A stretch of 64,000 nt of DNA, taken from NCBI GenBank assembly GCA_023423995.1, contig JAFAEL010000098.1:62001-126000 (forward strand), in the 5' to 3' direction. Shown piece by piece: positions 8,871 to 13,396 of the stretch. The notes beneath the pieces were generated by a model that saw only the letters and a list, made by a program, of their open reading frames with translations, ran no database searches and was not told the origin of the DNA. Positions within the stretch are counted from its first letter, which is position 1, and each line of letters starts with the position of its first letter. Source of the DNA: Pseudomonadota bacterium (GTDB lineage Bacteria; Pseudomonadota; Alphaproteobacteria; Rhizobiales; Beijerinckiaceae). The position numbers and the translations under genes were made by a program.

Positions 8871-8937
8871 AACCCGGGTCTCCGGGTCAAGTCCGAGGAT
8901 GACGGCCGGGGAGGCTGGACCCCGGCTTTCGCCGGGG
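8871..8937. repeat. Palindromic intergenic repeats in the hmgA-fahA spacer
   Basis: The spacer 8760-8950 contains no gene. Read on the minus strand, 8905-8871 begins CCGTCATCCTCGG and continues with nested CCGGGT/ACCCGG arms, the style of dispersed repeats in rhizobial genomes. At 8920-8937 there is a perfect hairpin, CCCCGGC-TTTC-GCCGGGG. The GTCATCCTCGG opening is shared with the longer elements at 12074 and 12728. The hairpin just after the hmgA stop could attenuate transcription into fahA. Confidence 0.65.
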
Positions 8938-8950
8938 TGAGCGGCGACGC

Positions 8951-11577: not shown

Positions 11578-12063
11578 TTGCTCGACACGGTCACGCTGGA
11601 TGGGTTCGACCTCAAGATCCTCGCAGCTCTGCAGCGCGACGGGCGCCTGACGAACCAGGAACTCGCGGACGAGGTCGGGCTGTCGGCGAGCCAGTGCTCT
11701 CGGCGGCGTCTCGCCCTCGAGGAGAAAGGCGTGATCCGCGGCTACCCGGCCCAACTCGCGCCGGAGCGGCTGGGCCTCGGCGTCACGGTGTTCACGCAGG
11801 TCACGCTCGCCCGGCACAGCCCCGACAACGCCCGCCGCTTCGCCGAACTCGTCCGCCGCCTCGACTTCGTCCTGGAGGCCCACGCGCTCACGGGAGACGC
11901 CGATTACCTGGTCAAGATGATCGTGCCGGACCTGCCGACCTTGTCGGAGGTCGTGAACGAGCACCTCCTGCCGCACGAAAGCGTCGCCAACGTCCGCTCG
12001 GCCGTTGTGCTGCAGACGCTGAAGACCGGCACGGCCCTGCCGCTGGGGTGGATGAGGGGGTAG
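11578..12063 (+). CDS. Lrp/AsnC-type regulator of the homogentisate genes
   Basis: A 161-residue Lrp/AsnC family regulator: an N-terminal helix-turn-helix (residues about 8-60, [20 protein letters not shown]) and a C-terminal ligand-sensing domain with [13 protein letters not shown], the conserved core of this fold. Translation begins at TTG with AAGGAGG nine bases upstream. Its divergent position beside hpd makes it the likely regulator of the tyrosine pathway, responding perhaps to tyrosine or a pathway intermediate; that is inference. Its stop is 10 bases from the left repeat of the GIY-YIG cassette. Confidence 0.9.
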
Positions 12064-12073
12064 CGGGCGGCCC

Positions 12074-12226
12074 GTCATCCTCGGGCGGCGCGCAGCGACG
12101 ACCCGAGGACCGCTTGCGGAGGGCACTCTGAATGAGATGGCCGGCTTGAGGCCGACCATGACGGCCCGCTCCGCCGTCATCATCGGCCGGAGCGAAGCGG
12201 AGAGCCGAGGGCCTCTTGAAGGATGA
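12074..12226 (+). repeat. 153-bp triple-hairpin repeat, left copy
   Basis: Three hairpins in a row. The first has CCTCGGG/CCCGAGG arms, the second GGCCGGC/GCCGACC arms (imperfect), the third TCGGC/GCCGA arms. The first 38 bases match the reverse complement of the right copy at 37 of 38 positions by my alignment, and hairpins two and three match with only a few changes. The spacers between hairpins diverge. It ends 3 bases from the stop codon of the nuclease gene. Confidence 0.8.
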
Positions 12227-12229
12227 TCG

Positions 12230-12532
12230 CTACTCCGGCGCGAGGCCGGACATCTCGAAGAAGAGGTCGCGCCAAGTTGGATTGTCGCGCTCGACCAGAT
12301 CGATCTTCCAGTCGCGATACCAGCGCTTGAGGCTCTTCTCGCGCTGGATGGCGACACGAACATCCTCGTGAACCTCGTACCAGACGAGGCGCGTGCAGTT
12401 GTACTTGCTGCTGAAGCCGGGGATGAGCGACTGCCGGTGTTCAGAGATGCGGCGGACGAGATCGGTCGTAATACCGATGTAGAGCACGCCGCGCGGCTTG
12501 TTCGTGACGATGTAGACGAACGAGAACTTCAC
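12230..12532 (-). CDS. Small GIY-YIG nuclease domain protein
   Basis: A 100-residue stand-alone GIY-YIG endonuclease domain of the UvrC N-terminal/YhbQ type. VYIVTN and LYIGITTDLVRRISEHR form the signature, and IQREKSLKRW carries the later conserved acidic/basic helix. There is no extra DNA-binding domain. The start is GTG with no good ribosome site, and codon choice is less GC-biased than in the neighbours (for example KFSFVYIVTNK). It is tightly enclosed by inverted repeats, suggesting that it belongs with them rather than with the metabolic genes. Activity and target are unknown. Confidence 0.85.
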   Translation of the reverse strand: MKFSFVYIVTNKPRGVLYIGITTDLVRRISEHRQSLIPGFSSKYNCTRLVWYEVHEDVRVAIQREKSLKRWYRDWKIDLVERDNPTWRDLFFEMSGLAPE

Positions 12533-12575
12533 GAGCGGAGCTTAGCGGGACGGTTCAGCTCTGCAAGGAGCCATT

Positions 12576-12728
12576 CTCGTCCTGAGGTCCTCGGCTCTAC
12601 GCTACGCTGCGGCCGAGGATGACGGCGGGATGGTGCGCCGTCATGGTCGGCCTTGAGCCGACCATCTCGTGCAAATTGCACTTGGCTGGAGGTCCTCGGG
12701 TCGTCGCTGCGCGACGCCCGAGGATGAC
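12576..12728 (-). repeat. 153-bp triple-hairpin repeat, right copy (inverted)
   Basis: This is the reverse-complement partner of 12074-12226, of identical length. Its second hairpin is cleaner, with ATGGTCGGC/GCCGACCAT arms, and its third has CCTCGGC/GCCGAGG arms. It ends two bases before the stop codon of the GntR gene, so it may also act as that gene's transcript end. Confidence 0.8.
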
Positions 12729-12730
12729 GC

Positions 12731-13396
12731 TCACCCATAGCTCGCCAAAATCAGCTCGGCCTTGCCGCGGATGTGGCGGCGCATGAGGGCGGCGAGGGCC
12801 TCGCCGTCGCGTGCCTTCAGCAGCCGCAGCATCTCCTCGTGTTCTTCCAATGCGCGCTGCCACTGCTCCGGGGTCTTGTGGGCCGCATAGCGGGCGCGCT
12901 GGATGCGGCCGGAGAGCGTCGCGTAGATGCCCTGGAGCGTGGCATTGCGTGAGGCGGCCATGATGGCCTCGTGGATCTCGCGGTTGAGGGTGAAATAGGC
13001 GACGTTGTCGCCGGCCCGGAACGCCTCGACCATGCGGGCGTGCCGTTCTGCAATGGCGTCGATCTCCTCGTCCGTGATCGACCTGCAGGCGAGCTCGGCG
13101 GCGGTTCCTTCCAGGCCTGCCACGACCTCGATCATCTCGTCCGTCTCTTCCGGCGAGATGGACGCAACCCGCGCCCCCTTGTTCGGCAGGAGCTCCAGCA
13201 GGCCTTCCGTCGCCAGGATCTTGATCGCCTCGCGCAGCGGCGTACGCGAGATGCCGAAGCGCTCGGAGAGCTCCAGCTCGTTCACGCGGGCGCGCGGCTC
13301 GAGCTCGCCCTCGCGGATCAGTTCGCGAATGCGGTCCGCCACCTCGTCATGGAGGTAGCGCTTGCTGATCGGGGCCTTGTGGAGCGGCTGGCTCAT
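12731..13396 (-). CDS. GntR family regulator (FadR subfamily, FCD domain)
   Basis: A 221-residue regulator with an N-terminal winged helix (residues about 12-78; ELSERFGISRTPLREAIKIL) and a C-terminal all-helical FCD ligand domain whose likely metal-binding His and Asp/Glu residues lie in LNREIHEAIM and EEHEEMLRLL. Its ATG overlaps the stop of the upstream FAD/Fe-S dehydrogenase gene (ATGA), so both are one transcript. By position it probably controls that dehydrogenase and the divergent aminotransferase, with a 2-hydroxy or 2-keto acid as effector; this is inferred. Confidence 0.92.
   Translation of the reverse strand: MSQPLHKAPISKRYLHDEVADRIRELIREGELEPRARVNELELSERFGISRTPLREAIKILATEGLLELLPNKGARVASISPEETDEMIEVVAGLEGTAAELACRSITDEEIDAIAERHARMVEAFRAGDNVAYFTLNREIHEAIMAASRNATLQGIYATLSGRIQRARYAAHKTPEQWQRALEEHEEMLRLLKARDGEALAALMRRHIRGKAELILASYG

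Follow-up and report, generated by a model that had tools for sequence, protein, structure and literature searches.

We analysed a 64,000-nucleotide stretch of an alphaproteobacterial contig (JAFAEL010000098.1, positions 62,001 to 126,000; hereafter the window) in which the gene for a small stand-alone GIY-YIG endonuclease is enclosed by inverted repetitive extragenic palindromes (REPs) that carry the tag CGTC. We propose that this locus is probably a REPtron-like unit that uses an unrelated enzyme, and that the CGTC REPs, including dRS3 of Neisseria, have this nuclease family as their cognate partner. The observed support consists of matching flanks in several phyla, clade-specific repeats, apparently intact catalytic residues, and sites that are occupied in one genome and empty or repeat-only in another. 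Furthermore, repeats are more numerous where the cognate nuclease clade is present, and the REP-associated tyrosine transposases (RAYTs) are nearly absent in Devosia, the genus that we studied most closely. The original prediction for this locus held that a GIY-YIG endonuclease plays a RAYT-like part for the repeat family, and it is supported by the wide recurrence of the inverted pair and by the co-variation of repeat type with nuclease clade.

The unit in the window and the genes next to it are as follows.

12230..12532, reverse strand: stand-alone GIY-YIG endonuclease gene, 100 aa, GTG start (PF01541, E 7.1e-18; model pLDDT 94)

12072..12112, forward strand: REP L1, the outermost left, a long CGTC-tagged hairpin (CGTCATCCTCGGGC...GACCCGAGGACC; fold of -15.4 kcal/mol with DNA parameters)

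12135..12163, reverse strand: REP L2, a shorter CGTC-tagged hairpin of a different type and in the opposite orientation (reverse strand CGTCATGGTCGGCC-TCAAG-CCGGCCATC)

12175..12214, forward strand: REP L3, CGTC-tagged with a decayed stem (CGTCATCATCGGCC...GAGCCGAGGGCCT; uncalled, 89% pairing with R3, weak alone at -4.5 kcal/mol)

12584..12625, reverse strand: REP R3, the long CGTC-tagged hairpin closest to the gene start (reverse strand CGTCATCCTCGGCCGCAGCG...GAGCCGAGGACCT)

12639..12667, forward strand: REP R2, a shorter CGTC-tagged hairpin (CGTC-ATGGTCGGC-CTTGA-GCCGACCAT)

12690..12729, reverse strand: REP R1, the outermost right, a long CGTC-tagged hairpin (reverse strand CGTCATCCTCGGGCGTCGC...GACGACCCGAGGACCT; fold of -17.3 kcal/mol)

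11578..12063, forward strand: Lrp/AsnC regulator gene, left neighbour (PF01037, PF13412)

12731..13396, reverse strand: GntR/FCD regulator gene, right neighbour, convergent (PF00392, PF07729)

The left arm (from 12074) repeats the right arm (to 12728) in inverted orientation, with 82.8% gapped identity over 145 bp (E 4e-38) and, in an ungapped comparison, 80% complementarity across 112 nt. Much of what the original prediction had described is borne out by these data: the 100-residue stand-alone GIY-YIG gene, the inverted orientation of the arms around it, the match at 37 of the outer 38 bases (L1 against R1, read from the sequence), and the boundaries of the unit, whose left arm begins 10 bases past the lrp stop and whose right arm stops 2 bases short of the gntR stop. 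Two of its statements stand only in part. There are indeed two matching arms, but a length of 153 bp for each depends on the chosen cut points, the aligned parts being 142 and 145 bp with gaps; and each arm does contain three tagged stretches, but rather than three hairpins in the same order these are two long stretches with a shorter one reversed between them, and the stem of L3 has decayed. Across the unit the tags run +, -, + before the gene and -, +, - after it, and all six stretches open with CGTCAT. Five of the six were called as hairpins, while L3 was identified through its tag and its resemblance to R3. When up to two mismatches are allowed, the window has 16 copies of the 13-mer GTCATCCTCGGGC versus 5.4 expected (0 of 100 shuffles reach 16), and all four of the tagged hairpins that a strict caller finds in the window lie inside the unit, compared to a mean of 1.05 and a maximum of 3 in 20 simulated windows. 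An Rfam search of the window gave zero matches at gathering scores.

The repeats in the arms belong to the CGTC-tagged kind of REP. In the accessible part of Di Nocera, De Gregorio and Rocco (2013, PMC3733652), REPs are mostly split into a GTAG and a CGTC superfamily; the CGTC REPs are chiefly alphaproteobacterial, have CGTC or TGTC as their tag, occur mostly as dimers and include dRS3 of Neisseria. The same part describes no association of CGTC REPs with transposase genes, stating that they "apparently lack a dedicated transposase". The window repeats have in common with this class (with dRS3 and RPE among its members in that text) the unpaired CGTC or TGTC tag, the hairpin and the alphaproteobacterial bias, and perhaps the dimers, one more pair in the window being seen by eye; the tag is present at one end of the five called hairpins and of the decayed sixth. 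R2 has two traits of a CGTC REP, a 9-bp stem with AT first and a 5-base loop. In contrast, the outer repeats of the window have longer, imperfect stems instead of 8-9 bp AT-first stems, and tails of CCG or CCT rather than near CCA, so that any placement in the four families of the 2013 authors would be tentative. Those authors, in the part of their text available to us, saw no associated transposase gene; the GIY-YIG partner is new here.

PF01541 is the sole Pfam family reported for the window protein, with no HUH/Y1 transposase domain among its matches. In an alignment of 39 sequences, Y18, R28, H32, E65 and N84 are invariant and Y7 is nearly so. We take Y7 and Y18 to be the tyrosines of the GIY and YIG motifs, R28 the central arginine and E65 the catalytic glutamate. 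Judged from its sequence, the window protein is a member of the GIY-YIG superfamily, with catalytic residues that appear intact. Its nearest solved folds are Slx1 and UPF0213, with which it has the minimal single-domain GIY-YIG layout in common; a sequence search against solved structures gave nothing convincing (best E 0.57), and a PADLOC search returned no family at E 0.01. Unlike Slx1, the nuclease family keeps an invariant C-terminal Asn, which the accessible part of PMC1564403 says is absent in Slx1 (the equivalence of the positions is assumed), and its single 100-aa domain leaves no space for a RING domain. Slx1, by comparison, has a RING domain and an Slx4 partner and cleaves branched DNA according to its structure. 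Members of the family are often annotated as "GIY-YIG nuclease family protein" or "putative endonuclease".

We searched for relatives of the nuclease with a profile built from the 39 aligned sequences and asked whether their flanks match. In the flank test, the 350 bp to one side of a gene are scored against the reverse complement of the other side, with 16 as the passing score, a threshold that was picked after the controls of the first set were known (the highest of 143 scored 15.4). Loci with less than 350 bp of flank on a side (300 in the first set), identical copies, loci with a profile score below 70 (40 in the first set) and, in the enlarged set, partial copies were left out of the counts. 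In the first set, 42 of 68 nuclease genes pass, compared to 0 of 143 open reading frames (ORFs) of the same loci and 38 of 600 swapped pairs. Enlarging the set gave 65 passes among 96 nuclease loci versus 1 among 172 neighbouring ORFs. Among the best-scoring loci drawn for each class (up to 30 per search, with classes named after the record title of the centre genome), matching inverted repeats flank 21 of 24 in Gammaproteobacteria, 17 of 27 in Alphaproteobacteria and 12 of 26 in Bacteroidia, versus 0 of 17, 0 of 18 and 0 of 17 neighbouring ORFs, respectively (0 of 52 over the three draws). From a plasmid collection, 10 of 13 loci pass (13 were fetched among 34 records with a match), including Neisseria gonorrhoeae (CGTCATTCCCGCG repeats), Spirosoma and the cyanobacterium Planktothrix; one locus (L115) passes in this set and fails in the enlarged set, where the gene end was placed differently. 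The inverted pair around GIY-YIG genes therefore recurs in Alpha-, Beta- and Gammaproteobacteria, in Bacteroidia and on one cyanobacterial plasmid, and because it is found in several phyla, the possibility that it occurs nowhere else than in the window, which would have counted against the original prediction, can be set aside. Three UPF0213-like genes (L034, L036 and L038) are not flanked by repeats, with scores of 9.0, 10.4 and 10.8.

The choice of test matters for these counts. A hairpin caller demanding 8-bp stems missed most repeats, and because a looser caller marked some repeat within 350 bp of 103 of the 172 neighbouring control ORFs, some of which share a gap with the nuclease gene, we relied on the two-sided flank score and on random genes. 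A uniform orientation of the nearest tags was considered as a further feature of the loci and rejected. At E 1e-25 the nuclease family is present in 82 of 289 alphaproteobacterial, 78 of 247 Bacteroidia and 53 of 229 gammaproteobacterial genomes, with as many as 10 copies per genome, some with inner stops. For instance, one alphaproteobacterial genome (G611) has ten copies, six of which pass the flank test, and the repeats visibly differ between its loci. In Neisseria gonorrhoeae (NZ_CP119140), a nuclease relative lies amid dRS3-type repeats, which points to it as a possible partner of this repeat.

The genus Devosia allowed a closer look at the relationship between nuclease and repeat. Of 75 Devosia genomes, 54 match the nuclease with E values of 1e-12 or lower, and 50 have strong copies. 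Among the family loci with full flanks, 72 of 87 pass the flank test, compared to 3 of 283 random Devosia genes (from 20 arbitrary 20-kb stretches of 20 genomes), and a strict REP lies on both sides of 19 of 53 nuclease loci versus 0 of the 283 random genes.

In these genomes, repeat type follows nuclease clade. Repeat types (A, B, C, D, E, and A with B) were assigned by eye before the tree was built, and 3 of 42 loci that could not be typed were excluded. On the protein tree of the remaining 39 loci, repeat type changes 5 times, which is the minimum, compared to 20.2 times when labels are shuffled (0 of 200 shuffles as low). Keeping one locus per flank-homology group (22 loci) gives 4 changes, again the minimum, versus 11.7 shuffled (0 of 200 as low). 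With automatic labels for all 92 copies, of which 20 are untyped (ten of these form one clade) and 2 mixed, there are 16 changes (minimum 5, shuffled 55.5). Clade C has 25 copies, 21 of type C and 4 untyped; clade D has 9 copies of type D and 1 untyped; and clade B has 16 of type B and 1 untyped, with one type B copy falling outside the clade. In one genome (G003), nuclease copies of three types (A, C and D) occur together, each adjoining its own repeat. Hence an own dispersed repeat family for each enzyme lineage, as is characteristic of RAYTs, is found in these Devosia relatives. In the untyped ten-member clade (L093, L209, L296, L304, L305, L308, L317, L319, L325 and L326), the repeats of the two inspected loci, L093 and L209, resemble GTCCTCGGG or GTCTTCCCTCGGG hairpins.

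A clade-specific repeat would not be expected if CGTC REPs were spread by a RAYT or some other transposase and the GIY-YIG gene were a passenger caught between them. GTAG REPs have been proposed to be spread by RAYTs (Nunvar 2010, PMC2817692, in its accessible part), and REP-rich intergenic regions could gather repeats. However, random Devosia genes are seldom flanked, and the Y1 transposase family (PF01797), the one transposase family searched for, is present in just 3 of the 75 Devosia genomes, none of them repeat-rich (G034, G085 and G017, with 8, 1 and 3 type A matches and 15, 1 and 1 type C matches). We therefore disfavour the passenger explanation as very improbable.

The number of repeats also goes chiefly with the cognate nuclease clade. 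Type C repeats have a median of 82 in the 21 genomes with clade C, 15 in the 29 genomes with other clades only and 2 in the 25 genomes without the family (clade C genomes versus other-clade genomes, P 0.001; versus no-family genomes, P 2e-7; here and below, P values ignore kinship). The type A pattern, which also picks up part of type B, has a median of 79.5 where the A group is present (26 genomes), compared to 17.5 in the 24 others and 12 in the 25 with none (P 0.007 and 1e-5); this A group is made up of the 30 copies that belong neither to B, C or D nor to the untyped ten, and is not one supported clade. Comparisons across types gave P values of 0.60 (type C by A group), 0.52 (type A by clade C) and 0.13 (type C by clade B), and the built-in control patterns occur 0 or 1 times per genome and strand.

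Some observations depart from a strict pairing of nuclease and repeat. First, 15 of the 87 Devosia nuclease loci have no detectable matching repeats, which we tentatively attribute to decay, to repeats that escaped detection or to repeats of other types. Second, type C repeats are commoner in genomes with other clades only than in genomes without the family (P 0.008). Third, six genomes with at least 60 type C repeats lack clade C. Lastly, Devosia G070 has 156 type A and 207 GTAG-type repeats with no match to the nuclease family or the Y1 transposase. Loss after spread, or assembly gaps, might explain the repeat-rich genomes that lack the cognate clade.

The same data bear on a housekeeping role, in which the nuclease would resolve REP cruciforms by trimming or repairing them and the adjoining repeats would regulate the gene as terminators or autoregulatory sites. 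The Slx1-like fold is in keeping with such a role, as is the position of the window gene between convergent genes, where hairpins could end transcription. Yet the patchy presence of the family (in Alphaproteobacteria and in Devosia), the inner stops and the up to 10 copies per genome look selfish, and genomes with more nuclease copies have more repeats, not fewer (Spearman 0.55). We consider a housekeeping role improbable.

Compared to RAYT/TnpAREP REPtrons, which have GTAG REPs, the units described here share the inverted tagged hairpins around an enzyme gene, the repeat dimers, an own repeat type for each enzyme clade, several clades per genome and a repeat number that tracks the enzyme. They differ in that the enzyme is a GIY-YIG nuclease and not an HUH tyrosine transposase, that the tag in the window is CGTC and not GTAG, and that the gene has only about 100 codons. 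Linkage, cognate specificity and abundance match the criteria that defined RAYTs as the partners of REPs, and on such genomic grounds the stand-alone GIY-YIG family takes the place of the transposase that CGTC REPs seemed to lack; because the class of enzyme differs, we call the unit REPtron-like and not a RAYT.

We also compared occupied sites with the same sites in relatives. In Azospirillum lipoferum 4B, a nuclease gene between two REP dimers separates sufB from sufC (L116:2820-3500, on a plasmid, at the operon junction), while A. oryzae, A. ramasamyi and strain B510 have just a short sufB-sufC gap without a tagged hairpin. In a second case, Sphingobium TomTYG73 and TomMM7A have a REP-gene-REP arrangement with fnrL on one side and a response-regulator gene on the other (the nuclease copy of TomTYG73 looks frameshifted, in two pieces); at this site TomTYG64 and TomTYG74 have a lone REP palindrome and TomTYG72 has other sequence. 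In the third, Sinorhizobium meliloti Ak57 has a nuclease gene fragment, a full copy and several REPs between gltA and lpxB, where Sinorhizobium K101 has one palindrome. For the Sphingobium and Sinorhizobium sites, gain of the gene and deletion between repeats both fit. No target duplication is readable from the three comparisons, in which inverted repeats are present. For the window copy, no empty lrp-gntR site was found when the window DNA was compared to 397 genomes of the order draw and 18 from the family search, along with a protein comparison to the fetched loci; none of the searched genomes keeps lrp beside gntR.

The bare palindromes in TomTYG64, TomTYG74 and K101 are what would be expected from homing, in which the nuclease gene would be a selfish element that cuts gene-free CGTC REP palindromes and is inserted with its flanking repeats by gene conversion, the REPs being landing sites that spread by other means. 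Weak matches of the nuclease to homing endonuclease families point the same way. However, the bare palindromes could equally be deletions between short direct repeats within two REPs, the site has no tagged hairpin in the three aligned Azospirillum relatives and other sequence in TomTYG72, and homing leaves the rise of REP number with the cognate clade unexplained. Moreover, the 100-aa protein lacks any DNA-targeting domain other than that of the nuclease, and unlike GIY-YIG homing endonucleases such as I-TevI, the gene is intergenic, with no intron or intein and no DNA-binding (NUMOD-type) tail. On balance, homing seems to us rather unlikely.

Divergent GIY-YIG genes of Devosia were intended as a negative control, and 15 of 19 ORF pieces pass the flank test (three of these loci are truncated copies of the main family). 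In the divergent clade itself (L330-L342), 12 of 13 loci are flanked by a different repeat, and the GTAG-type tag GTAGCCCTC is in the flanks of 6 of the 13. This is the tag so far tied to RAYT transposases. GTAG repeats have a median of 26 in the 13 Devosia genomes with the divergent clade (one with a broken copy only) versus 3 in the 62 others (P 3e-4); against this link, four of the most GTAG-repeat-rich genomes are without the divergent clade. The flanked divergent clade extends rather than limits the connection between GIY-YIG genes and repeats, and consequently no clean negative within the superfamily remains except the three UPF0213-like genes.

Returning to the REPtron-like reading, we infer that the enzyme cleaves DNA, recognizes the tag and spreads the repeat. 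A REP, with its unpaired CGTC tag and hairpin, would fold in single-stranded DNA or extrude as a cruciform; the nuclease, with its branch-cutting Slx1/UPF0213-like fold, would recognize tag and hairpin and nick at the hairpin foot; and repair or copying of the nicked repeat would carry REPs and their dimers into further intergenic sites. Movement of the nuclease gene would be rare, and its later loss would leave the REPs behind. More broadly, we lean slightly towards the view that stand-alone GIY-YIG nucleases are a second class of enzymes that generate and disperse REPs, unrelated to the HUH tyrosine transposases, and that this class serves the whole CGTC superfamily, neisserial dRS3 included, and, by way of the divergent Devosia clade, some GTAG repeats too. 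If true, hairpin DNA would be copied by a minimal structure-specific nickase, a transposition-like chemistry of a new kind.

In bacterial genomes, REPs count among the common repeats, and the accessible part of Di Nocera 2013 leaves open what spreads the CGTC half. Separately, Dunin-Horkawicz and colleagues (2006), in the part of their paper available to us, raised the question of molecular parasitism by further GIY-YIG nucleases. One nuclease family offers a single testable answer to both questions, and cognate enzyme-repeat pairs are now available for bench work. Among the literature matches listed, which exclude preprints and cover few subscription papers, there is no statement of a link between GIY-YIG nucleases and CGTC REPs; the one paper among them with both "GIY-YIG" and "RAYT" as whole words (PMC9465073) names the two, in its accessible part, as separate gene items.

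Two further loci are worth describing. The first is in the window and was found by eye, the strict caller finding neither of its hairpins; one of the two is CGTC-tagged and the other has a decayed tag.

8876..8943, reverse strand: two REP-like hairpins downstream of hmgA, with no nuclease gene (reverse strand CCGTCATCCTCGGACTTGACCCGGAGACCC and CACCCCGGCGAAAGCCGGGGTCC)

The second (L118) is on a Planktothrix agardhii plasmid, where a nuclease relative, accompanied by TGTCATTCTGAG repeats, has restriction (MmeI) genes on one side and DISARM genes on the other.
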